A stretch of DNA of 49,226 nt from Bacteroidota bacterium (GTDB lineage: Bacteria > Bacteroidota > Ignavibacteria > UBA10030): the NCBI GenBank assembly GCA_025454835.1, contig JALONQ010000004.1, forward strand, positions 175,144-224,369, in the 5' to 3' direction. Positions 8,903-48,369 of this stretch are shown here, piece by piece (position 1 is the first letter of the stretch; each line of letters opens with the position of its first letter). The notes under the pieces are model-generated. The model searched no databases and was not told the DNA's origin. It worked only from the letters and a program-made list of their open reading frames with translations. Both the position numbers and the translations under genes were made by a program.

Positions 8903-8959
8903 TGAAAGTGGGAAACAGCAAAGAGCAAGAAAACTGAAAGAAGCAGAAACAGAAAACAA
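8903..8959. repeat. Degenerate A-rich word array, copy A
   Basis: Overlapping variants of AACAGCAAG, AACTGAAAG and AACAGAAAAC run directly into a GC hairpin. The same block with about four changes recurs at 11005-11061, also directly before a GGCCCGG hairpin. Confidence 0.8.
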
Positions 8960-8991
8960 AAAGGCCCGGGAGGAGCACTCACCGGGCCTTT
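8960..8991. terminator. Intrinsic terminator, probably bidirectional
   Basis: A perfect 10-bp stem AAAGGCCCGG (8960-8969) pairs with CCGGGCCTTT (8982-8991) around a 12-nt loop. A-rich and T-rich flanks suit termination of hrpB (plus) and the FAD oxidoreductase (minus), whose 3' ends converge here. Confidence 0.85.
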
Positions 8992-9019
8992 GTGTTGAGA
9001 TCTGAGGTTGTGTGGGTGT

Positions 9020-10657: not shown

Positions 10658-10927
10658 GATGGGCGATGCGTCGGCGCTGACCGATCGACTGCGATCGTCC
10701 ACGACCGCCATCGATGGTCGTTCAACGCCACGCCTCCTTACGTGGACATGAGGAGCAGGCATGAGTCAGATCGAAGGAACGTGACCCACGAGGGATAGTG
10801 AGGCCTACGGAAACTACCCCCGCCGGGATTCAAAGGCAACCACGCAGGACGTACAAGCCAGAAGCTCGTAGGCGCTGATTCTCATTCCAGCGAATGCGCG
10901 AGTGCGTGAACCGCTCACGACAGCACA

Positions 10928-10955
10928 AAGGCCCGAGGAGAACTCCCCGGGCCTT
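10928..10955. terminator. GGCCCG hairpin, terminator-like
   Basis: AAGGCCCG (10928-10935) pairs with CGGGCCTT (10948-10955) across a 12-nt loop, followed by a T-rich stretch. It is the second of three related hairpins between 8960 and 11092. Confidence 0.65.
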
Positions 10956-11004
10956 CATTTCTTCTGTTTGCCAGAGATGCACTTTGAAAACGATGTAGAA
11001 GAAC

Positions 11005-11061
11005 TGAAAGTGGGAAACAGCAAAAAGCAAGAAAACTGAAAGAAGCGGAAACCGAAAACAG
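11005..11061. repeat. Degenerate A-rich word array, copy B
   Basis: Near-identical (about 53 of 57 positions) to 8903-8959. Reverse-complement words (for example CTTGCCGTTTGCTGTTCG) follow the hairpin from 11093 to about 11156, so the whole block could fold into one long imperfect stem-loop. Confidence 0.8.
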
Positions 11062-11092
11062 AAAGGCCCGGGAGGAACCTCGCCGGGCCTTT
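11062..11092. terminator. Intrinsic terminator downstream of the M3 peptidase
   Basis: AAAGGCCCGG (11062-11071) pairs with CCGGGCCTTT (11083-11092), the same stem as at 8960-8991 with a different loop. Its position beyond the minus-strand stop codon at 11155 suits termination of the peptidase transcript. Confidence 0.8.
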
Positions 11093-11154
11093 GACTTTTC
11101 TTCTCTTTCTGTTCGATGTTTTCTTGCCGTTTGCTGTTCGCCTTTTTCCGTTTG

Positions 11155-13251: not shown

Positions 13252-13279
13252 GGGAATGACCTCGTAGAAGAGAATTGTA

Positions 13280-13343
13280 CCGCTGAGACGCAAAGCCGCA
13301 GAGCAAACCCTTATCCTCACTTTGCGACTCTGCGTCTTCGCGG
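13280..13343. repeat. Imperfect inverted repeat of CGCAGAG/CGCAAAG words
   Basis: Arms 13280-13303 and 13320-13343 (24 nt each) match at 19 positions as reverse complements around a 16-nt centre. Each arm is itself built of the words GACGCA, CGCAAAG and CGCAGAG. It lies between the pyrophosphatase stop and the M3 peptidase start. A block with the same words is at 39554-39675. Confidence 0.75.
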
Positions 13344-13361
13344 TGATTTATTCCTCGGCCG

Positions 13362-13997: not shown

Positions 13998-14092
13998 ATG
14001 AAAGACTTCAGACGCCAGACGTTCAAACTCCAAACAGAGTTCAGACGGCAAACATTGAAATCTCCAAACAAATCGCCAAACCATCAAATGCA
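13998..14092. repeat. Degenerate word array (CAAACTCC/CAGACG type)
   Basis: A run of variants of CCAGACG, CAAACTCC, CAAACAGAG and CGCCAAACC fills the space upstream of ppa and leads into REP-like hairpins. Confidence 0.65.
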
Positions 14093-14234: not shown

Positions 14235-15017
14235 TTACAGCACGAGTCTGAGCGTCACCATCGGCGGAGGGGCTGAAGGCGCGATCAGGCTGCCCGTGGC
14301 CTGACGTTTATGCAACTGCGGGATCGCGTAGCCGACCGCCGCGCCAACGATGAAGCCAGCCGCAACGTCGCTCGGGAAATGCATGCCGGAAAAGACCCGC
14401 AGGGCGCCGGACGTCAGACCGATACCTGCACCCGCCACCCACAGGACCTTCGCCGTGGTCGAGCCCGGACGATATGCGTCGTACACCGTGGCCAGGAAGA
14501 TGCCGGCCGCCGTACTGATGCTTGTGTGGCCGCTGAAGAATGAACGCTTCATGTCCGCACGCATGCGTTCCTCCAAGGGAGCGCTTTCGTTGTACGCAAG
14601 CGGTCGCATGCGTCCCATCGCTTTGGTGTATTGCGGCAGAGAACTCGCAAGGACCAACGTCTGCAGATACATGCCCATGAGGTCGCCATAGTCCGGCTGG
14701 AATTCCGTCAAGACCAGCACGGGCGCGAGGACGGCGAGCCCGACCGCGATGTCGCTGGCAGCACGCACCTCCGGCGACCAGAACATCGTGGCCGGGCGAT
14801 CGAAGGACAGCACGTCGGCGCGGTCGAGCGCCGAAAGATCGGCCATGGTCAGTCCGCTGGTGTCGGACCGGAACGCGATCAGTCCACCCACGGCTACCCC
14901 GATCGTCACCGGGGTCAGCCAGGCGTCGGGTTCGGAGGCCAGGGAAAAGCGGGACTGGGAGAAGCAGACACCAGTGAACAGTAAACAGTGAACAGTGAAC
15001 AGAAGCAGGAACTTCAT
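14235..15017 (-). CDS. PAP2 superfamily membrane phosphatase
   Basis: A 260-residue type 2 phosphatidic acid phosphatase. All three catalytic motifs are visible: K132 to R138-P139 (KAMGRMRP), SGH at 162-164 (SFFSGHTS) and R207 to H213 to D217 (RVFSGMHFPSD). Substrates in the family are lipid phosphates such as phosphatidate, undecaprenyl diphosphate or phosphoglycolipids, dephosphorylated at the periplasmic face; the specific one cannot be read here. The signal peptide is encoded largely by a TTCACTG word repeat, which is odd. A short upstream frame ends in TGA overlapping this ATG, suggesting translational coupling. Confidence 0.88.
   Translation of the reverse strand: MKFLLLFTVHCLLFTGVCFSQSRFSLASEPDAWLTPVTIGVAVGGLIAFRSDTSGLTMADLSALDRADVLSFDRPATMFWSPEVRAASDIAVGLAVLAPVLVLTEFQPDYGDLMGMYLQTLVLASSLPQYTKAMGRMRPLAYNESAPLEERMRADMKRSFFSGHTSISTAAGIFLATVYDAYRPGSTTAKVLWVAGAGIGLTSGALRVFSGMHFPSDVAAGFIVGAAVGYAIPQLHKRQATGSLIAPSAPPPMVTLRLVL
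14972..15003. repeat. ACAGTGA word repeat inside the PAP2 signal-peptide codons
   Basis: On the plus strand the words AACAGTGA and AACAGTAA repeat about four times. Read on the minus strand they encode the core of the PAP2 signal peptide (FTVHCLLFTG). Confidence 0.75.
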
Positions 15018-27065: not shown

Positions 27066-27189
27066 TCAAGAGCAAGTTTTCGCCCCTTCGTGCATCTTAC
27101 AGATATGGAGCCACGGCCATGGGGCATTGAAGGGATAGTAAAACCCCCGCATTCCGCCTCCGGGTCACTGATGACTGCTCACGGACCCC

Positions 27190-27300
27190 TCGACCGCTCG
27201 ACGGTTCGACAGGCTCACCGTCGTCCTGAGCGCTCCGCCCTGAGCAACGCGAAGGGAAGTCGAAGGGCGATTCGGCCTTCGCCAAGCTCAGGCCTCACTC
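27190..27300. repeat. CCTTCGAC/GCTCAGG-type intergenic repeat
   Basis: Contains GGTTCGACAGGCTCACC, CGTCGTCCTGAGC, GCCCTGAGCAACGCGAAGG, AAGTCGAAGGGCG and CCTTCGCCAAGCTCAGGC in succession. This wording matches a repeat type I have seen in many environmental bacterial genomes (CCCTTCGAC...GCTCAGGGTGAC). A compact copy is at 39800-39862. Confidence 0.7.
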
Positions 27301-27315: not shown

Positions 27316-27358
27316 CCACTGACCACTGATTACTGACAACTGATCTCTGATCTCCGTC
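27316..27358. repeat. CACTGA/TCTGAT word array upstream of the sigma factor
   Basis: Variants CCACTGAC, CACTGATTA, CTGACAA and CTGATCTC run in tandem just before the sigma factor start. Nearly the same wording occurs upstream of ccoG at 36566-36606. Confidence 0.7.
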
Positions 27359-30385: not shown

Positions 30386-32836
30386 ATGACGATCCAACCC
30401 CTCATTCCATTCTCCTCCACACCTTCCACGATGGAGGGTGCCGTGGAGGCCGTCTGCTACCACTGCGGCGATCCGGTCGGACCGACCGGTGTGCATGCCG
30501 ACGGCAAGGCCTTCTGCTGCAATGGCTGCAAGGTGGTCTACGAGGTCCTGCAGAAGAACGACCTCTGCACGTACTACACGCTCGACTCGACCCCCGGCCA
30601 TGCTCCCATCATCCATGCGTCCGGCCAGTATGCGTTCCTTGACGATGAGACCGTTGCCCGTCCGTTGCTGACATTCCGGTCCGGCGACCGTGCGGGCGTG
30701 ACGCTCAGCATTCCGGGCATGCACTGCGCATCCTGCGTCTGGCTGCTCGAGCAGCTCTATACGCTCGACCCGGGCATCATCGAATCGCGCGTCGATCTTC
30801 TGAAGAAGCAGGTTGCCGTGCAGTTCGACACGACCCGCACGACGCTTCGCGCCGTCGTCGAACTGTTCGCCTCGCTCGGCTACGAACCCGAGATCAATCT
30901 GGGCAGTCTGGAGCAGAAGGCTGAATCGTTGGCGACGCGGGCGCTCGTGGCCAAGGTGGGGGTGGCGGGATTCTGCTTCGGGAACATCATGATGCTGAGC
31001 TTCCCGGAGTACTTCGCCACGTCGGACATCGACGAAGGCATGCGCCGGGTGTTCGACTGGGTGATGCTCGGTCTTTCGCTCCCCGTCTTCTTCTACTCGG
31101 CAAGCGAGTACTTTACCTCGGCCTGGGGCGGATTGCGCCGGGGGATCATCAACATCGACGTTCCCCTCGCGCTCGGCATCTTCATTCTCTTCACGCGCAG
31201 CGTCGTCGACGTGACCATCATCGGCCGGGCCGGCTACTTCGACTCTCTGGCCGGGCTCGTCTTCTTCCTCCTCATCGGCAAGGTCTTCCAGTCGAAGACC
31301 TACGACCGGCTCAACTTCGACCGCCAATACACCTCCTATTTTCCGCTGGCCGTCACGCTCCGCAAGCGCGGCGAAGAGCGTTCCGTACCGGTGACGACCC
31401 TCTCCGTCGGCGACAAGATCCTCATCCGGCACAACGAGATCATTCCGTGCGACGCCATCGTCATGAACGGAACGGCGCATGTGGATTACAGCTTTGTGAC
31501 GGGAGAATCCACGCCCGTGACGATGGCGCCGGGGTCGTTCGTCTACGCCGGCGGGCGCCAGACCGGGGGCGTGGTGGAGTTGGAAGTGACGAAAGAAGTG
31601 TCGCAGAGCCACCTGACGCAGCTGTGGAACCGTCACGACGCGGAACACGACGAGAAGAGCCGTTTGCTGACGCTGTCGAACCAGGTGGGCAAGTGGTTCA
31701 CTGCGGGGGTGCTCGTCGTGGCCGGCGCCGCGGCAGCCTATTGGCTGCTCGGGCAGGCCCCGCTGGTGGCGCTCGATGCCGTCACAGGGATCCTCATCGT
31801 GGCCTGCCCGTGCGCGTTCGCGCTCGCGGCGCCGTTCACCTACGGGGCCGTGCAGCGCCTCTTCGGCCGCCACCGGTTCTACCTGAAGAACGCCACGGTC
31901 GTGGAAGCGATGTCGCGCACCATGACGGTCGTGTTCGACAAGACCGGAACGCTGACGCACGGCCGCGCCCGGCTGGTGCAGTTCCTCGGCGAGCCGATGA
32001 CGCAATCGCATCGATCGCTCGTCGCCACACTGGCTCGCGCTTCGACACACCCCCTCAGCCGCGCCATCGAGCGATCGTTGGCGGGCGCCGCTTCGGGGTC
32101 TTTGGCCGACCTCGACGAGATACCGGGATCCGGGATCCGCGGAACCGTCGATGGCGTGGAGGTCCGTCTCGGCTCGCGCGCGTTCGCCGGACCAGGCCAC
32201 GAAGCTCCCGTCGAAGAAGCGACCGACGCCGCGCGCGTTCACGTCGCCATCGCCGGCCTGCCGATCGGCCTGTTCGTCGTACGGCAACAATACCGTGACG
32301 GCCTTCGTGACGTCATCGGCTCCATCGGTGCGCGTCATCGCGTCGCGCTCCTGTCGGGGGATCATCAAGGAGAGCGCGCGAAGCTCGAGGCCATGTTCCC
32401 TGCCGGCACGGAGATGCGGTTCGACCAGTCGCCGTTCGACAAGCGCGACGTCATCGAGCAGATCCAGTCGGGCGGACAGGCGGTCGTGATGGTCGGCGAC
32501 GGCCTCAACGACGCGGGGGCCTTGCGCCGGGCGAACGTCGGGATCGCCGTGACGGACGATGTCAACGCTTTTTCGCCAGCGTGTGACGCGATCCTCGAGG
32601 GAGACAGCCTGCGATATTTGCCGGCCTTCCTGCGTCTCAGCCGGCGTTCGGTTCAGATCATCTTGTTCAGTTTCTTCGTATCCTTCATGTACAATGTGGC
32701 GGCGTTAAGCATCGCCGTGCAGGGTACGTTGTCTCCCGTTCTCGCAGCTATTCTCATGCCGGTCAGCAGCGTTACGGTCGTGTCCCTTTCGATCGGTCTC
32801 GTTCGTCTTGCTGCCCGTCGGGAGGGGCTGGTATGA
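30386..32836 (+). CDS. ccoI: Copper-translocating P1B-type ATPase for cbb3 oxidase assembly
   Basis: 816 residues. An N-terminal Cys-rich domain (VCYHCGDPVG, KAFCCNGCKVVY) is the metal-binding region typical of CcoI/FixI, followed by an HMA-type domain with GMHCASC (Cys114, Cys117). The transmembrane ion motif CPC is at 474-476 (VACPCAFALAAP) and the phosphorylated Asp518 is in DKTGTLTHG, with GDGLNDAGAL near the C-terminus. It exports copper to the periplasm for CuB insertion into CcoN. ATG 30386 is used; ATG 30431 is an alternative. The stop overlaps ccoS by ATGA. Confidence 0.93.
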   Translation: MTIQPLIPFSSTPSTMEGAVEAVCYHCGDPVGPTGVHADGKAFCCNGCKVVYEVLQKNDLCTYYTLDSTPGHAPIIHASGQYAFLDDETVARPLLTFRSGDRAGVTLSIPGMHCASCVWLLEQLYTLDPGIIESRVDLLKKQVAVQFDTTRTTLRAVVELFASLGYEPEINLGSLEQKAESLATRALVAKVGVAGFCFGNIMMLSFPEYFATSDIDEGMRRVFDWVMLGLSLPVFFYSASEYFTSAWGGLRRGIINIDVPLALGIFILFTRSVVDVTIIGRAGYFDSLAGLVFFLLIGKVFQSKTYDRLNFDRQYTSYFPLAVTLRKRGEERSVPVTTLSVGDKILIRHNEIIPCDAIVMNGTAHVDYSFVTGESTPVTMAPGSFVYAGGRQTGGVVELEVTKEVSQSHLTQLWNRHDAEHDEKSRLLTLSNQVGKWFTAGVLVVAGAAAAYWLLGQAPLVALDAVTGILIVACPCAFALAAPFTYGAVQRLFGRHRFYLKNATVVEAMSRTMTVVFDKTGTLTHGRARLVQFLGEPMTQSHRSLVATLARASTHPLSRAIERSLAGAASGSLADLDEIPGSGIRGTVDGVEVRLGSRAFAGPGHEAPVEEATDAARVHVAIAGLPIGLFVVRQQYRDGLRDVIGSIGARHRVALLSGDHQGERAKLEAMFPAGTEMRFDQSPFDKRDVIEQIQSGGQAVVMVGDGLNDAGALRRANVGIAVTDDVNAFSPACDAILEGDSLRYLPAFLRLSRRSVQIILFSFFVSFMYNVAALSIAVQGTLSPVLAAILMPVSSVTVVSLSIGLVRLAARREGLV

Positions 32837-33051
32837 CGGTCATTTATGTTCTCATCGCCCTGAGCCTCACGGTCGCGGTCGGGTTCCTGATCGCCTTCCT
32901 GTGGGCCGTTCGCAGCGGCCAGTACGACGACACGCATACGCCGGGGATGAGGGTGCTGTTTGACGACACGAAGAAAACGTCCCAAACGTCCCAGACATCC
33001 CAAACGCCAAACAAACGTCCAGAACCGAAAGCAAACGCGCCAAACCGCTGA
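32833..33051 (+). CDS. ccoS: cbb3 oxidase maturation protein CcoS with a repeat-encoded tail
   Basis: 72 residues. The first ~45 residues are classical CcoS: one membrane helix (YVLIALSLTVAVGFLIAFLWAVRSGQYDD) and a short TPGMRVLFDD segment. CcoS is needed for metal and haem loading of the oxidase. The last ~27 residues (TKKTSQTSQTSQTPNKRPEP and beyond) are encoded by a degenerate CGTCCCAAA word array and look like repeat sequence translated by chance or captured. It overlaps ccoI by 4 bp. Confidence 0.9.
   Translation: MTVIYVLIALSLTVAVGFLIAFLWAVRSGQYDDTHTPGMRVLFDDTKKTSQTSQTSQTPNKRPEPKANAPNR
32968..33045. repeat. CGTCCCAAA word array inside the 3' end of ccoS
   Basis: Words ACGTCCCAA, ACGTCCCAG, ACATCCCAA, ACGCCAAAC, AAACGTCCAG and CGCCAAACC follow one another. 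A TTCTCAA/TTGAGAA inverted repeat (about 33091-33116) lies between this and ccoNO. Confidence 0.72.
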
Positions 33052-33158
33052 GAACGTTCGGCCGTCTTGCTGAACGCCGAGCGCTTCTCAAGCTCAGAAT
33101 TCATTGAGAACTCCATTACTGCTGTTTTTCACTCCAGTCCACCTACCAGGCTCATCGC

Positions 33159-35273
33159 ATGCAACTGGAACGTTTCGAGTATGACAATCGCCCCGTGCGG
33201 CTGTTCGCGATCGCGACAGTCGTCTGGGGCATCGTCGGCATGGTCGTGGGCGTCCTGATCGCGTCGCAGCTGTTTCATGTCGCGGCGAATCTGGGGCTCC
33301 CCTACACATCCTTCGGCCGACTTCGGCCCGTGCATACGAACGCGGTCATCTTCGCGTTCGTCGGCAACGCGATTTTCATGGGCATTTACTACTCCCTCCC
33401 CCGGTTGTGCAAAGCGCCGATGTTCAGCAAGGCGCTGACGGCCCTCCATTTCTGGGGCTGGCAGCTGATCATCGTCCTGGCGGCGGTGACGCTGGCCTTC
33501 GGTGCGACGACGAGCAAGGAGTACGCGGAGCTCGAATGGCCGCTCGATATCCTGATCGCGGTCGTCTGGGTGGCGTTCATCATCAACATGTTCGGCACGA
33601 TCCTGAAGCGACGCGAGAAGCACATCTACGTCGCGATCTGGTTCTATATCGCCACGGTGCTGACGGTCGCGATGCTGCACATCGTGAACTCGATCGAGGT
33701 CCCGGTATCGCTCCTGAAGAGCTACCCAGTGTATGCCGGCGTGCAGGACGCGCTCGTGCAGTGGTGGTACGGTCACAACGCCGTCGCATTCTTCCTGACG
33801 ACGCCGTTCCTCGGTCTGATGTACTACTACCTGCCCAAAGCGGCCAACCGGCCGGTCTATTCGTACCGCCTCTCGATCCTCCACTTCTGGTCGCTCATCT
33901 TCCTCTACATCTGGGCGGGACCGCACCACCTGCTCTACACGGCCCTGCCGGACTGGGCGCAATCGCTGGGCACGGTCTTCTCCGTCATGCTTCTGGCGCC
34001 GTCGTGGGGGGGTATGATCAACGGCCTGTTGACGCTGCGTGGGGCGTGGGACCGGGTGCGGGACGACGTCATTCTGAAGATGTTCGTCGTGGCCGTGACG
34101 GCCTACGGCATGTCGACGTTCGAAGGACCGATGCTGTCGTTCAAGAACGTGAACGCGTTCTCGCACTACACCGACTGGACGATCGGGCATGCGCACATCG
34201 GCGCGCTCGGCTGGAACGGGTTCATGACGTTCGCCATCCTGTACTGGCTCATCCCGCGGCTGTGGAACACGACGCTGTATTCGAAGAAAGCTGCCAACTT
34301 CCATTTCTGGATCGGGTTCCTGGGCATCGCCGTCTACGCGGTGCCGCTCTACTGGGCGGCCATCGTGCAGCAACTGATGTGGCGGCAATTCACGCCTTTC
34401 GGCGTGCTGCAGTACCCGAACTTCCTCGAGACGGTCACGCAGATCTTGCCGATGTACATGATCCGCGCCGTCGGCGGCACACTCTATCTGACCGGCGTCA
34501 TCGTCATGGTGGTGAACCTCTTCAAGACGGCCAAGCAAGGCTCGTTCGTGAAGACCGAAGCGGCCGAAGCGCCTCCGCTGGAGGCGACGACCGCACACGG
34601 CATGACGAACAAGCATCGATGGCTGGAGAAGCGGCCGATCCAGTTCGCGCTCTTGTCCTTCGTGGCCGTGGCGATCGGCGGCATGATCGAGATCATCCCG
34701 ACGGTCGTCGTCAAATCGAACATCCCGACGATCACGTCGGTGCGCCCCTACACGCCGCTCGAGGTCGAAGGCCGCGACATCTACATCCGTGAAGGCTGCA
34801 ACACCTGTCATTCGCAGATGGTCCGGCCGTTCCGGTTCGAAACGGAGCGCTACGGCGAGTATTCGAAGGCGGGCGAGTTCGTCTATGACCATCCGTTCCT
34901 GTGGGGGTCGAAGCGCACCGGTCCGGACCTCCACCGCGTCGGCGGGAAGTATTCGAACCTGTGGCATTACCTCCACATGCAGGACCCGGTGTCGATGTCT
35001 CCGGGGTCGATCATGCCGAGGTATCCGTGGCTGCTCGAAGACGCGCTCGACGTTTCCACCACGCCGGCGAAGATCTCCGCGCTCCGGACGATCGGCGTGC
35101 CCTATCCGGAAGGCTACGAGGAGCAGGCCGTGACGGACCTGACCCTGCAGGCGGAGAATATCGCGAAGGACCTGCAGACGCAGGGCGTGCCGGCCGATCC
35201 GGACAAGGAGATCATTGCGCTCATTGCGTACCTGCAGCGGCTGGGGACAGACATTAAGGGCGTGAAGCGATGA
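33159..35273 (+). CDS. ccoNO: cbb3 cytochrome c oxidase, fused catalytic subunit CcoN and haem c subunit CcoO
   Basis: 704 residues. The first ~470 are CcoN: multi-span haem-copper oxidase subunit I with ligand-bearing segments RPVHTNAVIFAF, WWYGHNAVAFF, WAGPHHLLYTALPDW (adjacent His pair for CuB) and WTIGHAHIGALGWNGFM. A cytoplasmic linker and one membrane segment lead into CcoO with a single c-type haem motif CNTCH (Cys547-His551) and downstream GSKRTGPDLHRVGGKYSN. Reduces oxygen to water with proton pumping at low oxygen. Such fusions are known in Bacteroidota and relatives. Codon usage and composition match the neighbours. Confidence 0.94.
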   Translation: MQLERFEYDNRPVRLFAIATVVWGIVGMVVGVLIASQLFHVAANLGLPYTSFGRLRPVHTNAVIFAFVGNAIFMGIYYSLPRLCKAPMFSKALTALHFWGWQLIIVLAAVTLAFGATTSKEYAELEWPLDILIAVVWVAFIINMFGTILKRREKHIYVAIWFYIATVLTVAMLHIVNSIEVPVSLLKSYPVYAGVQDALVQWWYGHNAVAFFLTTPFLGLMYYYLPKAANRPVYSYRLSILHFWSLIFLYIWAGPHHLLYTALPDWAQSLGTVFSVMLLAPSWGGMINGLLTLRGAWDRVRDDVILKMFVVAVTAYGMSTFEGPMLSFKNVNAFSHYTDWTIGHAHIGALGWNGFMTFAILYWLIPRLWNTTLYSKKAANFHFWIGFLGIAVYAVPLYWAAIVQQLMWRQFTPFGVLQYPNFLETVTQILPMYMIRAVGGTLYLTGVIVMVVNLFKTAKQGSFVKTEAAEAPPLEATTAHGMTNKHRWLEKRPIQFALLSFVAVAIGGMIEIIPTVVVKSNIPTITSVRPYTPLEVEGRDIYIREGCNTCHSQMVRPFRFETERYGEYSKAGEFVYDHPFLWGSKRTGPDLHRVGGKYSNLWHYLHMQDPVSMSPGSIMPRYPWLLEDALDVSTTPAKISALRTIGVPYPEGYEEQAVTDLTLQAENIAKDLQTQGVPADPDKEIIALIAYLQRLGTDIKGVKR

Positions 35274-35283
35274 AGATCTCCGT

Positions 35284-35425
35284 GAGATTGTCGATTTGCG
35301 ATTTGCGAGTGTCGATTATCGGGGATCGCCGGACCGAGATGTATTGATCGAAAGTCGCACATCACAGGTCGACTGTGACTGAGGTTTTCAGGCCATTCGT
35401 CAATCGACACTCGACAATCGACATT
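35284..35425. repeat. Word-array inverted repeat between ccoNO and ccoQ
   Basis: Left arm words GATTGTCGA, GATTTGCGA, CGAGTGTCGATT (35286-35317); right arm AATCGACACTCG (35402-35413) and TCGACAATC (35411-35419) are their reverse complements in nested order. The centre contains a small CACAG/CTGTG hairpin (35363-35377). Confidence 0.8.
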
Positions 35426-35430
35426 CTATC

Positions 35431-35628
35431 GTGCTACAACAATACCTTCAATCGCTGGACGGCATGGTGACCTACCAGGTCATCTCCTTCATCCTGTTCC
35501 TTACTGTGGCCGCCGGGGTGACGATCTGGGTGCTCCGGATGAAGCGCGAACATGCCGATCGGATGGCGCGCATGCCGCTCGACGACCAGACCTTGAACCG
35601 CGACTCCAATACCGAGGTGCGTTCGTGA
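35431..35628 (+). CDS. ccoQ: cbb3 oxidase small subunit CcoQ
   Basis: 65 residues from a GTG start. One membrane helix (VISFILFLTVAAGVTIWVLRM) followed by a charged cytoplasmic tail, the usual CcoQ layout; CcoQ stabilises the assembled oxidase. Overlaps ccoP by 4 bp (GTGA at its stop), so translation is coupled. Assignment rests on position and topology more than sequence. Confidence 0.85.
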   Translation: MLQQYLQSLDGMVTYQVISFILFLTVAAGVTIWVLRMKREHADRMARMPLDDQTLNRDSNTEVRS

Positions 35629-36440
35629 CTCTTCTATCTAGAGCCCTGAATCGTAAATCGATTTACGTTGTTATGGCCCTGTTTCTTCCCCTCTCCGAAG
35701 CCCGCGCCGAGGGGGCCGGCGACATCGCGGTGCTGATCACCGGCGTCAGTACGGTCGTCATCATGATGCTGTTGCTGTTCATCGTGTTCGTGATGAACGC
35801 CGACGTCGCGCCGATGACGCGGCTCCTCGCGACGCTCCGCAACCGGTTCTGGACCGGCGCCTACACCGAGCAGAAGATCGGCGTCGACCACGACTTCGAC
35901 GGGATCACGGAGCTCGACAACCGCATTCCACCCTGGTTCAACTATCTGTTCTACGGGTCGGTGGTCTTCGGCATCGGCTACTTCATCCATTTCCACGTGC
36001 TGGGCGGAACGTTGAGCGCCGGCGAGTACGAGCAGCAGATGGCGGCCGCGGCGATCGAACGACGCGTCGTGCTGGCCAACGAGGGATCGATCGACGAGAA
36101 CAACATCGCCGTCCTGACAGCCGCGGATGCGCTTGCGAATGGCGAGGGGAACTACCAGAAGTACTGTGTCTCCTGCCACGCGAAGGACGGCGGCGGCATC
36201 GTTGGACCGAACCTGACCGACCAGTACTGGATCCATGGCGGGGGCGTGAAGGACGTGTACGGGATCATCAAGAACGGCGTTGCGGCCAAGGGGATGATCA
36301 GCTGGCAGCTGGTGTTCACGCCCAAGCAGATGCAGGAACTGGCCAGCTATGTGCTGACCCTGCAAGGGACGAAGCCCCTGGCACCCAAGAAAGCCGAAGG
36401 GGAGCTGTTTGTGGTCAAGGCGGATAGCCTGAAGAAGTGA
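35625..36440 (+). CDS. ccoP: cbb3 oxidase subunit CcoP, one-haem form
   Basis: 271 residues. Two membrane helices (AVLITGVSTVVIMMLLLFIVFVMN and WFNYLFYGSVVFGIGYFIHFHVLGG) with the CcoP signature DFDGITELDNRIPPWFNY between. Only one c-type haem site is present, CVSCH at 181-185, followed by VGPNLTDQYWIHGG and an axial Met region (KGMISW). Proteobacterial CcoP has two haems; one-haem forms occur in Bacteroidota. The protein transfers electrons to CcoNO. The start overlaps ccoQ. Confidence 0.92.
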   Translation: MTLLSRALNRKSIYVVMALFLPLSEARAEGAGDIAVLITGVSTVVIMMLLLFIVFVMNADVAPMTRLLATLRNRFWTGAYTEQKIGVDHDFDGITELDNRIPPWFNYLFYGSVVFGIGYFIHFHVLGGTLSAGEYEQQMAAAAIERRVVLANEGSIDENNIAVLTAADALANGEGNYQKYCVSCHAKDGGGIVGPNLTDQYWIHGGGVKDVYGIIKNGVAAKGMISWQLVFTPKQMQELASYVLTLQGTKPLAPKKAEGELFVVKADSLKK

Positions 36441-36510
36441 ATAGAGAATAGAGAATAGAGAATAGAGAATGGAGAATGGAGAATGGAGAATGGAGAATGG
36501 AGAATGGAGA
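36441..36510. repeat. Ten 7-bp tandem units after ccoP
   Basis: Four copies of ATAGAGA (36441-36468) then six of ATGGAGA (36469-36510), starting directly at the ccoP stop codon. Copy number could vary by slippage. Confidence 0.95.
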
Positions 36511-36555
36511 ATCGACACAAGCAAAGCGAATACCGGAGAGAGCTCCTCTGCTGCT

Positions 36556-36606
36556 CTCTAACTCCTAACCACTGACCCCTGATCTCTGACCACTGACCTC
36601 TGAATT
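36556..36606. repeat. CCACTGACC word array before ccoG
   Basis: Words CTAACTCCTAA, CCACTGACC, CCTGATCTC, TGACCACTGACC and TCTGAATTC precede the GTG start. The wording is shared with 27316-27358. Confidence 0.72.
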
Positions 36607-36612
36607 CTCCCC

Positions 36613-38010
36613 GTGTCCTCCTCTGACTCCTACAGAGACCGCCTGGGCCTTGTCACCGAAGAAGGCGCGCGAAGCTGGATCTACCCCAAGCAGCCGTCGG
36701 GCCGTTACTACACTGCCCGCACGATCCTGAGCTTCCTCCTTCTGGCCGTGCTGTTCGGAACGCCGTTGATCAAGATCGACGGCCATCCGTTCATGATGTT
36801 CAACGTCGTCGAAGGCCAGTTCATCCTGTTCGGCGCCGGATTCGGCACGCACGACTTCTTCATCCTCGGATTGCTGACGATCTCGTTCATCGTCTTCATT
36901 CTCCTGTTCACCGTCGTGTTCGGCCGGCTGTTCTGCGGATGGGTCTGTCCGCAGACAGTGTTCATGGAGATGGTCTTCCGGAAGATCGAGTACTGGCTTG
37001 AGGGAGATTTCCGCGAGCAACAGCGGCTCAACGCGGCCCCGTGGACGGCCGGCAAGGCCGCCCGGAAGCTGACGAAGTATGGCATCTTCTTTGCGATCGC
37101 CTTCCTGATCGGCAACACTCTGCTCGCCTGGATCATCGGCGTCGACCAGTTGTGGAAGATCGTCACCGACCCGCCGGCGGAGCACGTCGCCGGCCTGACA
37201 GCCATGTTCGTCTTCAGCGGCATCTTCTACTGGATCTTCGCCTGGTTCCGCGAGCAGGCGTGCATTCTCGTCTGTCCCTACGGGCGGCTCCAGGGGGTCC
37301 TGCTCGACAAGGACTCGATCGTCATCGCGTACGACCGGGTGCGCGGCGAACCGCGCGGCAAGCTCACGAAGGGTGAGGAGCGGACGAAGGGAGACTGCAT
37401 CGACTGCGGCCTGTGCGTCGACGTCTGTCCGACCGGCATCGACATTCGGAACGGCACGCAGCTCGAATGCGTCAACTGCACCGCCTGCATCGACGCGTGC
37501 GACCCGGTGATGGACAAGATCGGCAAACCGCGCGGGCTTATCCGCTATGACTCGGAGAACAACATCGTCAACAAGGTCCGGAAGATCTGGACTCCACGCG
37601 TCGTCGGCTACACAGCGGTCCTGACGGTCCTCGTCGGTCTCCTCACATACCTGCTGACGACCCGGTCGTTGTTCGATGCGACGATCCTCCGGTCGCCCGG
37701 GATGTTCTTCCAGGAACAGACGGACGGCCGCGTGAGCAACATCTATGACGTGAAGGTGACGAACAAGACGTTCGAGGCGGCGACGGTCAGCATCCGCGTG
37801 GAGAGCGACCCGAATGCCGAGGTGCGCTTCATCGGCGGCGACCTGGCGGTGGGGCCTCAGCAAGCGATCCAGGGCAAGGCGATGATCCTTCGCGACCGGG
37901 CGTCGATCACCAAGATGAGCATGCCGTTGCAGATCGGCGTGTATGTCGGCAACGAACGTGTGGCGGGAACGGGGACGACTTTTCTGGGACCAACTATAGG
38001 AAGTAAGTAG
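36613..38010 (+). CDS. ccoG: cbb3 oxidase assembly ferredoxin CcoG
   Basis: 465 residues from a GTG start. Several membrane helices, the FCGWVCPQ motif, and a bacterial ferredoxin domain with two 4Fe-4S sites (CIDCGLCVDVCPTG from residue 262, CVNCTACIDACDP). A C-terminal Ig-like FixG_C domain (NIYDVKVTNKTFEAATVSI) is present. CcoG reduces Cu(II) to Cu(I) during CuB delivery to CcoN. The C-terminal residues and stop codon run directly into a word array. Confidence 0.93.
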   Translation: MSSSDSYRDRLGLVTEEGARSWIYPKQPSGRYYTARTILSFLLLAVLFGTPLIKIDGHPFMMFNVVEGQFILFGAGFGTHDFFILGLLTISFIVFILLFTVVFGRLFCGWVCPQTVFMEMVFRKIEYWLEGDFREQQRLNAAPWTAGKAARKLTKYGIFFAIAFLIGNTLLAWIIGVDQLWKIVTDPPAEHVAGLTAMFVFSGIFYWIFAWFREQACILVCPYGRLQGVLLDKDSIVIAYDRVRGEPRGKLTKGEERTKGDCIDCGLCVDVCPTGIDIRNGTQLECVNCTACIDACDPVMDKIGKPRGLIRYDSENNIVNKVRKIWTPRVVGYTAVLTVLVGLLTYLLTTRSLFDATILRSPGMFFQEQTDGRVSNIYDVKVTNKTFEAATVSIRVESDPNAEVRFIGGDLAVGPQQAIQGKAMILRDRASITKMSMPLQIGVYVGNERVAGTGTTFLGPTIGSK

Positions 38011-38166
38011 TAAGCAGGCCATTGAGGAAGGATTCCAGTAGAAGCAGGCAGTAGGCAGGTTCGTTCAGGCCCGATCAGGCGGAAGTCGAGGGACAAAGAT
38101 CAGCGATCTGTTGCTTTGGACTCAACCTGCAGCGTCCTGAGTGTACCTGCTTACTGCATACTACAT
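38001..38166. repeat. Word-array inverted repeat between ccoG and ccoH
   Basis: Left words AGTAAGTAG, AGTAAGCAGG (38009-38018), AGAAGCAGGCAGTAGGCAGG; right words CCTGCTTACT (38146-38155) and GCATACTACA. The right arm is the reverse complement of the left. The centre of about 90 bp is unique. Confidence 0.78.
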
Positions 38167-38186
38167 GTGAACTTCAGACGACTTCA

Positions 38187-38639
38187 ATGAAACGCACTTG
38201 GGAATTCGCCGTTGCCGGTTTCTTCCTCTTCTTCATCCTTGGCGTGCTCGCGGTCGCATTTCTCACGCTCGACGACCGTAACGACCTGGTCACCGAGCAC
38301 TACTACGACGCCGAGATCCAGTACCAGCAACAGATCGACCGGGTCGACCGGACGAAAGCCCTGAATGAACAGCCGAGCATTGAACTTGTCGCTGAAGGGG
38401 TCAGGATCCGGTTCCCGAAGGAATTTCAGCGCGGCGATCTGACGGGAACGGTCCATGTCTACCGTCCCGATGACAAGCGACTGGACTTGATGATCCCCAT
38501 CGGCCCCGATTCAGCCAATCGCCAACTCATCCCGATCGGCCTTCTGCAGCCGGGATCGTGGAATGTGCAGGTGATGTGGAATGGGAGGAGCGTGGGGTAT
38601 TACAGTGAAGGGAAGTTCTTGGTGGGAAGCACTCGGTAG
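38187..38639 (+). CDS. ccoH: cbb3 oxidase assembly protein CcoH/FixH
   Basis: 150 residues. One N-terminal membrane helix (FAVAGFFLFFILGVLAVAFLTL-like), then the FixH motif LVTEHYYDAEIQYQQQIDRVDR and a periplasmic beta domain (GTVHVYRPDDKRLDLMIPI, LQPGSWNVQVMWNGRSVGYYSE). FixH/CcoH interacts with CcoP during assembly. Position after ccoG is canonical. Confidence 0.9.
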   Translation: MKRTWEFAVAGFFLFFILGVLAVAFLTLDDRNDLVTEHYYDAEIQYQQQIDRVDRTKALNEQPSIELVAEGVRIRFPKEFQRGDLTGTVHVYRPDDKRLDLMIPIGPDSANRQLIPIGLLQPGSWNVQVMWNGRSVGYYSEGKFLVGSTR

Positions 38640-38837
38640 GAATTTCGGAATGCGGAATGTCGATTTCGGATTATCGGTGAAGATTTCACGCTAATATTCC
38701 GAAATCCTCAATTCGAAATCCGCTATCCTCACTGCGTACTCACATTTACCATATCGGATCATCGGCAAAGACCTCCGACAGCTAATCCGCAATCCCCGAT
38801 CCGCAATCCGCAATCCCCGATCCGCAATCCGCAATCC
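38640..38837. repeat. Word-array inverted repeat and 21-bp tandem repeat before the TauE-like gene
   Basis: Left words GGAATTTCGG, AATGCGGAATG, GATTTCGGA (38662-38670) face right words TCCGAAATC (38698-38706), AATTCGAAATCCGC. Two perfect 21-bp units, starting CCCCGATCCG, occupy 38794-38835, next to the AGGAG of the following gene. Confidence 0.85.
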
Positions 38838-38849
38838 TAGGAGCATTCC

Positions 38850-39542
38850 ATGGACCTCCTCACCGCGTTTTCCATTGGTGCATTAGGTAGTCTCCATTGC
38901 GTCGGCATGTGCGGACCGCTCGCGCTGGCACTGCCGATCGGCGCCGGCTCGACCGTGACGTTCCTCGTCGGCCGCGTTCTCTACAACGTCGGCCGAGTCG
39001 CGACCTACGGCGTGATGGGGTTGCTGGCCGGGCTCATCGGACAGAAGATCGTCTTCTACGGCTTCCAGCAGACCGTCAGCATCGCGGCCGGTGCGTTGAT
39101 GATCGGCGCGTATGCCTTCCCGGTCCTGATCGGACGTCACCTTGCCAAGCTTTCCTTCCTCAACGCCCTTTCCAACCGCGTTCAGACCGCCTTCGCGAAC
39201 CTGCTCGCCCGCCGATCCGTGCTGACGATGTTTCTCATCGGCCTTGTCAACGGCCTGCTGCCCTGTGGATTGGTCTATGTCGCGCTGGCGGGATCGGCCT
39301 TGACCGGAGATCCGCTACGCGGAGCGCTCTATGCCTCCGTGTTCGGCCTCGGAACGGTCCCGATGATGTTCGTCGTGTCGATCCTTGGCCGCCGCGTATC
39401 GCCAGACCTTCGCCGCCGCATCGCGAGACTCGTGCCCGTGTTCATGATCGCCTTGGGTGCGCTGTTCATTCTGCGCGGGATGAACTTGGGGATCCCGATG
39501 GTGAGTCCCAAGGTGGGAGTGGAAACACAAAGGCATTATTGA
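38850..39542 (+). CDS. TauE/SafE-like (DsbD_2) membrane protein of the cbb3 locus
   Basis: 230 residues with about six membrane helices and the hallmark GALGSLHCVGMCGPLALALP near the N-terminus, plus a second conserved GLVNGLLPCGLVYVALAGSA. The paired Cys motifs occur in the sulfite-exporter/DsbD_2 group that is regularly placed at the end of ccoGHIS clusters and is linked to copper handling or oxidase assembly. The ATG follows AGGAG. Transported substrate is not determined; a role in oxidase maturation is inferred from position. Confidence 0.85.
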   Translation: MDLLTAFSIGALGSLHCVGMCGPLALALPIGAGSTVTFLVGRVLYNVGRVATYGVMGLLAGLIGQKIVFYGFQQTVSIAAGALMIGAYAFPVLIGRHLAKLSFLNALSNRVQTAFANLLARRSVLTMFLIGLVNGLLPCGLVYVALAGSALTGDPLRGALYASVFGLGTVPMMFVVSILGRRVSPDLRRRIARLVPVFMIALGALFILRGMNLGIPMVSPKVGVETQRHY

Positions 39543-39553: not shown

Positions 39554-39675
39554 CGCGCAGAGCCCGCAGCGAGCGCAAAGACCGCAGAGAAAGAAAGCGA
39601 TGTCGTGACTCGATTTTTTCTGATAGGTCCACACTTCGTTCTACGATGTGCTCTGCGACCGCTGCGTTCTCCGCG
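39554..39675. repeat. CGCAGAG/CGCAAAG word-array inverted repeat
   Basis: Left words GCGCAGAGCCCGCAGCGAG, GCGCAAAGACCGCAGAG (39554-39588); right arm CTCTGCGACCGCTGCG, TTCTCCGCG (39651-39675) reads as their reverse complement. Same word type as 13280-13343. Confidence 0.72.
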
Positions 39676-40746: not shown

Positions 40747-42165
40747 ATGGCAAACTCATCCACCATCTTCCTCTCCCTCTTCGGAGGGGTCTTTCTTCTG
40801 GCCGGACTCGCGATGCTCATCTCGGGCCTGGGCGATATCGGAGTCGCCGAGAACGACGATCAGTGGGTCCTCGTCGTCATGGGGATCATCTTCGCCGCAG
40901 CTGGCGGGGCGGTCATCGCGGCGGGCTTCCGACATGGGGCCGAGGTCAAGGCGATCGAGGCGGCGAAGCAGCGCCATCCGTCTGAACCTTGGATGTGGGA
41001 ACGCACGTGGACCTCGCGCCGGATCGAGCATGACGCGGGTTCGACCACGGTCGCGCTCTGGGCCTTCGCTCTCATCTGGAACGCCATCGTGATCACCGCC
41101 GGCATTCTCGGGTGGGAGGAAATGGCCGCTCAGGTCTCTGAGGAACCCGCCGTACTGTTCGTGCTCCTCTTCCCCGTCGTCGGCATCGGTGTCTTCATCG
41201 CCGCCGTCCGCTCGACGATGCAGTGGCGCCGGTTCGGTACCTCGGCTTTGGTGCTGCGGCGCATCCCGGTCGCATTGGGCCGCGACTTCACGGGGACGCT
41301 CGAACTGCCTGCCGACGTTCGCGAAGCGGACGAGATCATGGTCTCCTTGCGGTGTCTCCGGACCACGAAAAGCGGAAAGAATACCTCGACGGCCGTCATC
41401 TGGAGCGACGAGCAGCGGTATCCGCGCACGTTGATCGGTTCCGGCCCCTCCGGCCCAACGTTGGCTGTCAGCTTCCGCGTACCCGCCGACGAGCCCGAGA
41501 CCTCCGTTGGGAGCGGCTATCCGTCGATCCGCTGGGAACTGAACGTCTCCGCCGCCGTCGCCGGCGTCGACTTTGGCGCTTCATACCGCCTGCCGGTCTT
41601 CCGGACGCACGACACGCACGAGCCCGGTGCTTCATCCGAGGAGGCCCCGAGTCCCCGCGCTGAGCGCGCGTTCGGTGTGGTGGAGCGCACGATCGTACGC
41701 CAACGCGGGGCCGACGGATCGTCGGTCTGGCACTATCCCCCGTTGCGGGCCCCGTCGGCGGCCGTCTTCCTGACCGGATTCACGATCGTCTGGAGCGTGG
41801 TCGTGTACTTCCTGGCCTCGTCGGACGCCCCCGGGATCTTCACCGCCCTCTTCGGCTTCTTCGAGATCCTGCTCATCATGGGAACGGTGGATGTTCTGCT
41901 GGGACGCGTGACCGTGACCATCGACCGTCGTGGGATGAGCGTCCTGGGCGGACCGGGATTCTCGATGAATACGCGCGTCGTGCCTCTGGCCGACGTGCAG
42001 CAGTTTCGGGTCAAGGGCGGCATGACCGTCGGCTCGACGGTGTATCATTCGATCGAAGCGTCACTGGCCAACGGGAAGACGGTGACGGTGGGCAAGTACC
42101 TCCGGTCGAGAGCGGAAGCCGAAGAGATTGTGGAGGAAATGGAGGAAGAGTTGAAGAGGGGGTGA
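40747..42165 (+). CDS. Multi-span membrane protein, DUF3592-like, unknown function
   Basis: 472 residues from the ATG at 40747. Two N-terminal helices (IFLSLFGGVFLLAGLAMLISGLG, VLVVMGIIFAAAGGAVIAAG), two more near residues 110-160, a soluble beta-rich domain of about 150 residues (DFTGTLELPADVREADEIMV, AVSFRVPADEPETSVGSG), two further helices, and a C-terminal PH-like beta segment (RVTVTIDRRGMSVLGG, VPLADVQQFRVKGG). The layout is typical of DUF3592-type envelope proteins. The C-terminus is acidic (EEIVEEMEEELKRG). The longer upstream frame crosses the palindrome and is not used. Confidence 0.72.
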   Translation: MANSSTIFLSLFGGVFLLAGLAMLISGLGDIGVAENDDQWVLVVMGIIFAAAGGAVIAAGFRHGAEVKAIEAAKQRHPSEPWMWERTWTSRRIEHDAGSTTVALWAFALIWNAIVITAGILGWEEMAAQVSEEPAVLFVLLFPVVGIGVFIAAVRSTMQWRRFGTSALVLRRIPVALGRDFTGTLELPADVREADEIMVSLRCLRTTKSGKNTSTAVIWSDEQRYPRTLIGSGPSGPTLAVSFRVPADEPETSVGSGYPSIRWELNVSAAVAGVDFGASYRLPVFRTHDTHEPGASSEEAPSPRAERAFGVVERTIVRQRGADGSSVWHYPPLRAPSAAVFLTGFTIVWSVVVYFLASSDAPGIFTALFGFFEILLIMGTVDVLLGRVTVTIDRRGMSVLGGPGFSMNTRVVPLADVQQFRVKGGMTVGSTVYHSIEASLANGKTVTVGKYLRSRAEAEEIVEEMEEELKRG

Positions 42166-42179: not shown

Positions 42180-42260
42180 TGAGCGGGGAGCGGTGATCGG
42201 GGATTGGGGATTCGGTATTGGGTATCAGCGATCGGGTATCGGTGATCGGGAGTGAACGGT
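42180..42260. repeat. GATCGGG/GGGGATT word array, left arm
   Basis: Words GATCGGGGATTGGGGATTCGG, GTATTGGGTAT, GATCGGGTATCGGTGATCGGG. A segment at 42198-42222 matches the reverse complement of 42919-42944 over its first 18 positions with one change. Confidence 0.8.
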
Positions 42261-42820: not shown

Positions 42821-42884
42821 TAATGGAGTACCAAGTAGGTAGATGGAAGTAGTCAGACTGAAGCACAAATTACGGCTGCCCTAT

Positions 42885-42957
42885 TCTAGTTTCAGGTTTC
42901 GAATTCCAGGCTCCGAGTCCCGGGTTCCGAGTCCCCAATCCCCGACTACCACCCCCA
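42885..42957. repeat. CCGAGTCCC word array, right arm
   Basis: Words AGTTTCAGGTTTCGAATTCC, GGCTCCGAGTCCC, GGGTTCCGAGTCCCC, AATCCCCGAC. It is the inverted counterpart of 42180-42260 and abuts the GH47 stop codon. Confidence 0.75.
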
Positions 42958-46278: not shown

Positions 46279-46313
46279 GCCCTGCCGCGTGCGATGGATA
46301 CGCGCGACAGGGC
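46279..46313. terminator. Terminator hairpin between convergent genes
   Basis: GCCCTG (46279-46284) pairs with CAGGGC (46308-46313), extended inward by CGCG pairs, followed by a T-containing tail. It separates the GNAT-like gene (plus) and the M1 peptidase (minus). Confidence 0.75.
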
Positions 46314-46392
46314 CCTTTGGAAATGGACTTCATGCAGCTGCTTCTCCCGTCTGGATCCTCCCCACCACCACACTCCTTACACCTCTCTCCTC

Positions 46393-48369
46393 CTATTTGC
46401 TCTCCTCCGCCTTCGTCCACACGTTGTTCTTCCGGTCGATGTCGGCGAAATAGTACTTGGGGTCGATCTCGACCTTCACAACCGGAGAGCCGGGCTTGAC
46501 GGTCACGGTGGTCTTCGTGCGGCCGATGAGCCACTCCTCCTCCGACAGCCGCAGGTCTTCCGTCGAACCGTCCGCGCGCGTCACCGTCAGCAGGACCGGC
46601 ATCGGAACCCAGCCTTTGTCTTCGACGGTGATCTCCGTTCCGACGGCCGTTTCCTTCACACCCGTCACGGCGTGGTCCAGCGTCCAGGTCTCGTAGTACC
46701 ATGATCGGACGAACCAGTCGAGGTTCTTTCCGCTCACGGTCGAGAAGGTGTTGAACATGTCCCATGGATACGGATGTTTGAAGGCCCACGCCTTGATGAA
46801 CGTTCGGAAGGCCTTCAGGAACATCTCTTCGCCCAGGACGCCGCGGAGCATGTGCAAGATCGACGCGGGCTTGGGGTACGACGCCACGCCGTACGCCATG
46901 CCGTTGTTGTGGAAGTTCGACCACCGCATGATCTCTCCCTCACCCTCCATCCTCGCCAGCATCAGGTATCCGGAGAAGCGGCTGTCGGGCCTCGGCTTGA
47001 GCGAATCGGGAGGGATCGCCCGCATCGCTTCATCGGTGTGAAACGACGTCGTTCCTTCGTCCATCCAGCCGTACCGCCTCTCGTCGGTGTTCACGATCAT
47101 CGGCATCCACATATGCGCCTCTTCGTGCGCCGTCACGCCCAGCAACGCCATGTCTCCGGCGTTGTTGTAGCCGCCGATGAGGGTCATCATGGGAAACTCC
47201 ATGCCGCCCCCCATGATCTTGTCTCCTTCGACGGCGGTCATGTGCGGCCAGGGATACGGAAGTCCGGTGAACTCCGAAAGGAACGCGATCGACTTCTGCG
47301 TGTACTCCACGGACCGCGCCCAGCGAAAGTACGCGGGACGCCAGAAGGCATGGCACATCGCATAGTCCGCTTTGCCGTCGCCGTCGCGGTCACCCACCTT
47401 CGTGCGGGCCGCCTCCCAGATCGACGACCGCGTGGCCACGAAGGCCACGTCGCGCACCTGTTCAGCTTTGAACTTCCACGTATGCCATCCGTTCTTGCCG
47501 GGACGCGTGGCCTTGCCGAAGTCTTCCGGACCGGCGATACGCACCGTGGCGTCGCTCTTCTCGGCTTGCGACAATCGTTTCAGCGTCTCGTCCGACAGCG
47601 TCTCCTTCGGATTCTGGAGCACGCCCGTGCCATGGACCAGCCAATCGTCGGGAATGTCGACGGCATAGTCGTACGTGCCGAACGGCGAATAGAACTCCGC
47701 CATGCCGAAGAACGGATCATCCTGCCAGCCGACGACGTCGTTGAAGACCGCCATTTGGGGATACCAATAGCCGAAGTAGAAGAGGCTGTCGGTGTCATAG
47801 CCCATGCGGCCCGAGATGCCCGCCTTGGGGACCTGATACGCAAAATCGACCTCGATCGTGGCACTCCCCTTGGGCGGGACCGGCGTGGATGGCATGATCG
47901 CCATCATCGTGCCGTTGACCATGTAGCGCGCCCCGGTGCGGCCGCCCTGCTTCAGCCGCTCACCGTTGGCGATGACCGTGTTCAGCACATATCCTTCGGT
48001 CACCTCCTGCGGGATCAGGCGCATCGCTCCTTTGGAGTGGATGTTCTGGAGCAACTGAACGCGGAGCGAGCGGAGCGTGTCGGGGCCGTTGTGGCGGTAC
48101 GTGATCGCGACGCGGCCTTCCAGCCGCTTGAGCTCGGGCAGCACCCGGACGTGAATGCGATAGTCGGCGGTGTTCTGCCAGTACTTCGGTCCGGGAATGC
48201 CCGTGGACATGCGCGTGCCGGCCTCGATCGCTTCGCGGAATCCCTTGTCGGGCACGACGGGATAGGGGCGGGGGCGTTGGGCAAGAACAAGTGAGGTGCT
48301 GAGGAGGAGAAGCGCGAGGAGAACCAAGTGCGATGCCGAATTGCGAATTGCCGAATGCGGACTATCCAT
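46393..48369 (-). CDS. M1 family metallopeptidase, secreted
   Basis: 658 residues. Signal peptide with a long hydrophobic core (LVLLALLLLSTSLVLAQ). The zinc site HEEAH-x18-E is exact: His415, Glu416, His419 and Glu438 (WMDEGTTSF). The exopeptidase motif GAMEN is replaced by GGGMEFP just upstream, as in many Bacteroidota M1 proteins, so aminopeptidase activity is likely but not certain. N-terminal beta domain (YRIHVRVLPELKRLEGRVAITYRHNG) and C-terminal beta domain complete it. The first dozen codons are built from a word repeat. Likely digests peptides outside the cytoplasm. Confidence 0.92.
   Translation of the reverse strand: MDSPHSAIRNSASHLVLLALLLLSTSLVLAQRPRPYPVVPDKGFREAIEAGTRMSTGIPGPKYWQNTADYRIHVRVLPELKRLEGRVAITYRHNGPDTLRSLRVQLLQNIHSKGAMRLIPQEVTEGYVLNTVIANGERLKQGGRTGARYMVNGTMMAIMPSTPVPPKGSATIEVDFAYQVPKAGISGRMGYDTDSLFYFGYWYPQMAVFNDVVGWQDDPFFGMAEFYSPFGTYDYAVDIPDDWLVHGTGVLQNPKETLSDETLKRLSQAEKSDATVRIAGPEDFGKATRPGKNGWHTWKFKAEQVRDVAFVATRSSIWEAARTKVGDRDGDGKADYAMCHAFWRPAYFRWARSVEYTQKSIAFLSEFTGLPYPWPHMTAVEGDKIMGGGMEFPMMTLIGGYNNAGDMALLGVTAHEEAHMWMPMIVNTDERRYGWMDEGTTSFHTDEAMRAIPPDSLKPRPDSRFSGYLMLARMEGEGEIMRWSNFHNNGMAYGVASYPKPASILHMLRGVLGEEMFLKAFRTFIKAWAFKHPYPWDMFNTFSTVSGKNLDWFVRSWYYETWTLDHAVTGVKETAVGTEITVEDKGWVPMPVLLTVTRADGSTEDLRLSEEEWLIGRTKTTVTVKPGSPVVKVEIDPKYYFADIDRKNNVWTKAEESK
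48334..48360. repeat. GAATTGC word repeat inside the M1 peptidase N-terminus
   Basis: TGCCGAATTGCGAATTGCCGAATGCGG-type words (plus strand, 27 nt) encode residues 4-12 of the peptidase on the minus strand, between the start codon and the signal-peptide core. Confidence 0.65.

Follow-up and report, generated by a model that had tools for sequence, protein, structure and literature searches.

Degenerate heptad arrays with many words in the intergenic spacers of a Bacteroidota genome

The window, i.e., the whole stretch of 49,226 bp that was analysed (C3:175144-224369), belongs to a genome (G000) of 3,225,489 bp in 47 contigs. Gene boundaries were set with a codon model built for the analysis, and the listed spacers were also inspected directly. 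A run of cbb3-oxidase-like genes (32833-39542) displays COX1, FixO, FixP and FixG domains, and COX1 and FixO are fused there in one open reading frame (33159-35273). Among the six called spacers of this run, three contain tandem arrays of degenerate 7-nt units, or heptad arrays (35274-35430, 36441-36612 and 38640-38849), and a fourth carries a dispersed inverted-repeat element, AGTARGC. Elsewhere in the window, a called minus-strand gene (1-6108) contains two sets of 201-bp tandem repeats, with ~5 copies each (2990-4251 and 4391-5455). The features are given below with the p-value of a per-place test, which used bounds that we set ourselves, lags of 4-14 and 1000 dinucleotide shuffles, with a floor of p = 0.001; all are single-place values without correction.

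8900-8992, plus strand: 93-bp repeat, copy 1, with a purine-rich tract and a terminator-like hairpin (GGCCCGG...CCGGGCC), at the place named AACAGCAAG; p = 0.31
11002-11093, plus strand: 93-bp repeat, copy 2, 91% identical to 8900-8992; p = 0.52
13281-13345, no strand: imperfect inverted pair CGCAAAG..CGCAGAG / CTTTGCG..CTCTGCG, from direct reading; lag test p = 0.12
13998-14090, no strand: weak degenerate array CAAACTCC; best lag 12, p = 0.02
14972-15002, no strand: heptad array AACAGTGA, inside the 5′ end of a called gene (14235-15017); TRF period 7, p = 0.001
27316-27354, no strand: heptad array CTGACCA/CTGATCT, directly before the called gene at 27375; p = 0.001
32975-33006, no strand: period-9 array AAACGTCCC, at the 3′ end of a called gene (32833-33051); p = 0.001
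35286-35321, no strand: heptad array GTCGATT, 3′ of the COX1 and FixO gene; p = 0.001
35394-35426, no strand: heptad array AATCGAC, directly before the called gene at 35431; p = 0.002
36436-36515, no strand: heptad array GAATAGA then GAATGGA, beginning at the stop of the FixP-like gene; TRF 10.6 copies, 98% match, p = 0.001
36558-36603, no strand: heptad array ACCACTG/ACCTCTG, directly before the FixG-like gene (36613); p = 0.001
38002-38019, no strand: further AGTARGC half-site, at the place named AGTAAGCAGG
38043-38162, no strand: one copy of the AGTARGC dispersed inverted-repeat element, from a half-site search, paired half-sites and aligned copies
38784-38837, no strand: heptad array AATCCGC/AATCCCC/GATCCGC, directly before the called gene at 38850; p = 0.001
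39555-39590, no strand: CGCAGAG/CGCAAAG words; place test p = 0.10, whole-spacer p = 0.015 at lag 18
42181-42249, no strand: heptad array GGGGATT/GGGTATC-like (GATCGGG), 3′ of a called gene (40747-42165); p = 0.001
42884-42935, no strand: period-14 array CCGAGTCCC, at the opposite edge of the convergent spacer shared with 42181-42249; p = 0.001
48334-48356, no strand: short weak array TGCCGAAT, from TRF; p = 0.033

The initial annotation had named 17 places as repeats of 7-10 bp words, and 11 of these displayed periodicity in the place test, nine at p = 0.001 (14972, 27316, 32968, 35286, 36441, 36566, 38783, 42190 and 42910) and two more weakly (13998, p = 0.02, best lag 12; 48334, p = 0.033). 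The other six failed, as periodicity was not significant at 8903 (p = 0.31), 11005 (0.52), 13280 (0.12), 26930 (0.19), 38009 (0.21) and 39554 (0.10). The word length reduces mostly to a 7-bp period: among the nine strongest places, seven have a best lag of 7, one of 14 (42910) and one of 9 (32968). The listed places mix at least two kinds of thing, since those at 8903 and 11005 are a terminator-bearing repeat and that at 38009 is a half-site beside an inverted-repeat element; moreover, the exact word AACAGCAAG is missing from both stretches for which it had been named. The statement that each spacer has a different word is only partly correct, as AACAGTG, AATAGAG/AATGGAG, ACCCGAT and others recur across several arrays.

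On a genomic scale, the lag identity of 188 spacers was compared, against dinucleotide shuffles, with that of 188 length-matched coding fragments. Values of p ≤ 0.01 were found for 39 spacers and 3 coding fragments, and values of p ≤ 0.05 for 67 and 12, respectively (5 and 10 out of 30 spacers when the window is taken alone). Shuffled spacers thus yield such arrays less often than real ones, a check that the initial annotation had proposed. The best lag was 7 in 24 of the 39 spacers with p ≤ 0.01, compared to 7.1% in shuffles. In addition, a scan of 795,671 bp of the genome identified 88 strong arrays (score ≥ 12), with period 7 in 38 and period 14 in 12, and one shuffle of the same DNA gave 9 arrays, none with period 7. 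Almost all of these arrays are mostly non-coding (36/38 with period 7 and 11/12 with period 14), while non-coding sequence represents 10% of the DNA; a weaker second class, with periods of 9 and 10, comprises 8 and 4 mostly non-coding arrays. Within the 21 arrays of at least 42 bp, identity is 0.81, 0.82, 0.79 and 0.75 at lags 7, 14, 21 and 28, and 0.24-0.28 at lags 5, 6, 8 and 9. A 50-kb stretch of E. coli contained zero arrays scoring ≥ 12, and the window gave no match to Rfam. Degenerate tandem arrays, mostly heptads, are therefore real in this genome, with a 7-nt tandem unit beyond chance and a concentration outside genes, as in heptanucleotide SSRs. Coding DNA largely excludes heptad arrays because a 7-nt step shifts the reading frame.

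The STRR (short tandemly repeated repetitive) sequences of cyanobacteria are degenerate heptads between genes, and by this description resemble the G000 heptads. The initial annotation could name no family, yet published work describes heptanucleotide repeats (PMC4679880, PMC4692102). Through them, Mrazek et al. (2007) are reported to have found the 7-nt unit to be the most abundant among long SSRs of prokaryotes and to have proposed slippage, and the idea of a polymerase contact for 7 nt is also Mrazek's. The G000 arrays share this 7-nt unit, but those of G000 and of G001, a same-genus relative of a separate species, differ from the SSRs so reported by their degenerate copies and by the many words found in two genomes of one genus. 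Each of the two papers treats one word family, for which word-specific functions are proposed. The GGGNATC repeats of Xanthomonas and Nostoc (PMC4692102) have related words in tandem in a few G000 arrays only, at C37:36754-36802 (GGGAATC, GGGTATC) and 42181-42249 (GGGGATT/GGGTATC). That paper describes these repeats as placed outward from genes; in G000, the G-rich strand points outward at 42181-42249 and C37:34476-34555, with C37:36754 as an exception, and the orientation extends to many words without G-tracts. As for TAACTGA, its repeats in Beggiatoaceae, cyanobacteria and Bacteroidetes are mostly intergenic heptads, mixed with other heptads in Microcystis, and Table 1 of PMC4679880 gives 132+15 sets towards start codons versus 12 towards stop codons, which agrees with the outward reading of the G000 arrays. 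Tandem TAACTGA is missing from the 30 exact-word classes of G000.

In this genus, roughly one in seven of the spacers sampled contains arrays, and these comprise many words. The counts are 53/359 and 25/177 for G000 (49 and 25 when AGTARGC arms are excluded) and 41/291 for G001, compared to 1/111 for ten more distant relatives. The individual arrays are not conserved between the two species: none of 31 colinear gaps has an array in both genomes (1.2 expected by independence), with 9 arrays in G000, of which 3 are AGTARGC arms, and 4 in G001. Words are thus not retained at orthologous spacers, the second check that had been proposed. As an example, the spacer at C3:166881-167106 contains AACAGTGA and CATCTTA arrays in G000 and the corresponding 105-bp gap of G001 has neither, while at C3:164888-165172 an array (CTTCTGA) occurs in G001 only. 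Five exact word classes are common to both genomes, versus 1 when reversed and 0.88 expected by chance.

Beyond the genus, a search of public genome contigs for the GAACAGT array gave at least 115 stretches that carry it (a plain count of this word), and the matches listed include cyanobacteria, Acidobacteria, Bacteroidetes, Planctomycetota, Nitrospirae, Chloroflexi and Gammaproteobacteria. In the 115 listed loci, which were chosen for their heptad array, 180 further heptad-type arrays occur in 83 loci, and TAACTGA is present in 17. A fixed vocabulary across phyla was rejected: once the GAACAGT class is set aside, a G000 word class is matched by 6 of the 129 arrays from other phyla, and by 7 of 129 when the words are reversed. 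The AACAGTGA array occurs in 4 of 395 genomes of a phylum sample and its backward control in 7; viral contigs gave 8 stretches versus 5 backward, and 11 versus 2 for GAATGGA.

The orientation of the arrays relative to genes is biased. It was scored in a discovery set of 68 arrays, with all tests rerun without the 5 that are AGTARGC arms, and in a hold-out of fresh 380,374 bp sampled after the discovery set. G and C are unequal in 67 of the discovery arrays and, reading 5′ to 3′ outward from the nearest gene edge, G exceeds C in 55 of these (50/62 without the arms); the ratio in the hold-out is 27:5. Similar arrays from different spacers display the same outward orientation in 96 of 111 pairs (threshold 0.7; p = 0.0002 with random flips), compared to 69 and 59 when the same 111 pairs are scored by mRNA strand and by contig strand, and in 72 of 86 pairs without the arms (p = 0.0002). 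In the hold-out, 25 of 32 arrays match the orientation of their best discovery partner (p = 0.002), with 19 of 25 at a stricter threshold; for G001, the agreement is 27/42, 27/40 and 23/32 at thresholds of 0.6, 0.65 and 0.7 (p = 0.09, 0.04 and 0.02).

The two kinds of gene edge behave differently. At start edges, G exceeds C outward at 251:82 without arrays and at 43:4 for arrays, which is only a moderate excess (p = 0.014), and array orientation there for the most part mirrors the base composition of leaders without arrays. At stop edges, the ratio is 39:13 for arrays versus 153:136 for array-free edges (p = 0.0037), an excess that leader composition does not explain; it becomes 29:12 (p = 0.043) after removal of gene-touching arrays and 26:12 (p = 0.084) after removal of the AGTARGC arms too, and stop edges of G001 are near even (arrays 15:12; array-free 74:101). 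Convergent spacers display outward polarity in our genome (9:3) and in other phyla (32:12), a bias that is not significant without gene-touching arrays (7:3 and 14:7, respectively), and divergent spacers of other phyla have no polarity (10:11). Note that words bearing a stop codon bias gene calling at stop edges. The polarity first seen for GAACAGT at stops in other phyla (41/48 within 50 bp) was rejected as inflated, because the TGA in this word ends reading frames; corrected by counting arrays located 3-100 bp outside genes, it is 19/28 at stops and 12/17 at starts. In the open-licence literature, we found no statement of outward orientation as a rule across words, and the orientation described here, over many words, extends the published GGGNATC observation. 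Taken as a whole, this is a real and known kind of repeat, to which are added the many-word set at the genus level, the lack of sharing at orthologous gaps and the outward orientation. As a separate observation, C exceeds G upstream of array-free starts in G000 (251:82), in G001 (132:72) and in a small same-family sample (21:9), and this skew is absent in sampled same-order relatives (18:27).

Arrays at both edges of one spacer were often inverted copies of the same word. In 13 discovery spacers with 14 such pairs, the inverted similarity from edge to edge is 0.57 versus 0.471 for permuted partners (p = 0.0012); 11 of the 14 pairs are closer inverted than direct and three are not, and without the AGTARGC arms 10 of 13 are (p = 0.003). 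The same was observed for 5 of 6 pairs in the hold-out and, as a plain count, for 48 of 59 in other phyla. As an example, the GTCGATT and AATCGAC arrays (35286-35321 and 35394-35426) are inverted partners, with a similarity of 0.74 inverted versus 0.51 direct.

The best explanation is probably 7-nt slippage in unconstrained spacers, with some copying between edges and between spacers. As the mutational step, short seeds in such spacers would expand through slippage during replication or through unequal exchange, with a step of 7 nt (or else 14 or 21), and the arrays would then drift by point mutation and be lost or replaced by another word; seed expansion, drift and word replacement would together lead to one architecture with interchangeable words. 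The array at 38784-38837, in which three variant heptads form a 21-bp block that recurs exactly (2.6 copies, 100%, TRF), has the pattern expected from multi-unit duplication. As the selective step, a compositional filter on leaders, present in array-free spacers of the genus too, may set most of the orientation on the start-codon side. Since slippage alone predicts neither one outward orientation of similar words nor a common unit order, some words would be copied inverted to the opposite edge of the spacer and others between spacers; template switching, which makes inverted copies (PMC8794818), is a candidate for the former. Finally, a few ‘words’ are arms of dispersed inverted-repeat elements. 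The common generating process proposed by the initial annotation gains from this in part: period 7 dominates many words, multi-unit duplication is seen and arrays are unconserved at orthologous spacers, but 6 of the 17 places are unsupported, some words are dispersed repeats and some sharing looks copied.

Alternatively, copying could be the main process, with arrays being arms or pieces of MITE- or REPIN-like elements that have their own word per family and are placed between genes, a reading that we hold to be the less probable one. AGTARGC is such an element. Its half-sites number 34 genome-wide (≤ 2 mismatches) versus 1 for the backward control, and 11 convergent pairs can be formed from them, each 102-128 bp long (one more pair in the list, at 161 bp, takes the window's right half-site a second time and is not counted here); 8 aligned copies share a conserved centre, and in G001 matches are no more numerous than for the backward control. 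Its inverted ends, its size near 123 bp and the dispersal of several copies of about equal length are the features by which it resembles MITEs and REPINs. The arms of the GTCGATT family keep their unit order in 4 two-armed spacers, among the 40 best array pairs, which are not independent, 15 have a common unit order, and one similarity component holds 77 of 536 spacers, all of which point to copying. In contrast, the centres of the GTCGATT family fail to align, and no heptad array lies in the 2.1 and 3.2 kb around the two Y1_Tnp (RAYT-like) genes of G000 (C33:275-616 and C30:5231-5413). The RAYT link expected of a REPIN also failed for AGTARGC, as the Y1_Tnp genes are not flanked by the repeat. 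Palindromic repeats do occur near the gene at C33:275-616 and are unlike the heptad words.

A broader claim, which we consider rather doubtful, is that a single process in scattered lineages of many phyla writes 7-nt repeats with changing words at gene edges, mostly outward and in many cases with the two edges of a spacer inverted relative to each other, with STRRs, TAACTGA and GGGNATC as instances. If the outward tendency holds widely, explanations based on a single word (G-quadruplex, TAACTGA-binding protein) would not be broad enough, and the focus would move to the mutational process and to the tolerance of spacers beside start codons.

It is unlikely that the arrays are selected regulatory parts of mRNA, such as leader or intercistronic hairpins or G-quadruplexes. 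Their location is consistent with this role, as 14 of 37 co-directional arrays end at most 16 bp from the downstream start, and similar proposals were published for TAACTGA and GGGNATC (PMC4679880, PMC4692102). Convergent spacers also fold more strongly with arrays (mean z -3.8, n = 4) than without (-1.78, n = 32). Co-directional spacers with arrays, on the other hand, do not exceed those without arrays in the strength of RNA folding (mean z -0.89, n = 40, versus -1.27, n = 191), and 0 of 31 orthologous gaps share an array. RNA hairpins were rejected as a general cause on the same comparison, the four convergent spacers excepted; the folding of arrays taken alone resembles that of shuffles (mean z -0.11 over 84 array strands).

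The addition of words, templated or untemplated, to DNA ends at breaks in spacers would account for outward orientation at both edges and for the same word inverted within a spacer; this seems very improbable to us, as the start-edge bias is largely common to array-free leaders, the stop-edge arrays of G001 are near even and the bias in convergent spacers loses significance without gene-touching arrays. Chance low complexity of spacers, to which the six places without significance among the 17 could be ascribed, is refuted for the strong arrays by the shuffle and coding controls and by the E. coli stretch, and has next to no credibility.

Some further words adjoin the arrays. At 27184-27300, inverted words of the GACAGGCTCA / CTGAGC type lie next to the CACTGA array, and in the spacers at C1:176081, C2:67430 and C37:7692 similar arrays are joined to a CCCTCGACTCG tract, and two of these three spacers carry CGGGGCATG as well. 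Finally, GAAGCGGTCTCA / TGAGATGGCTTC arms at 48984-49150 may represent a further miniature element, and such arms are also located at C37:33721-33971 in G000 and beside an AGTARGC element in L321.
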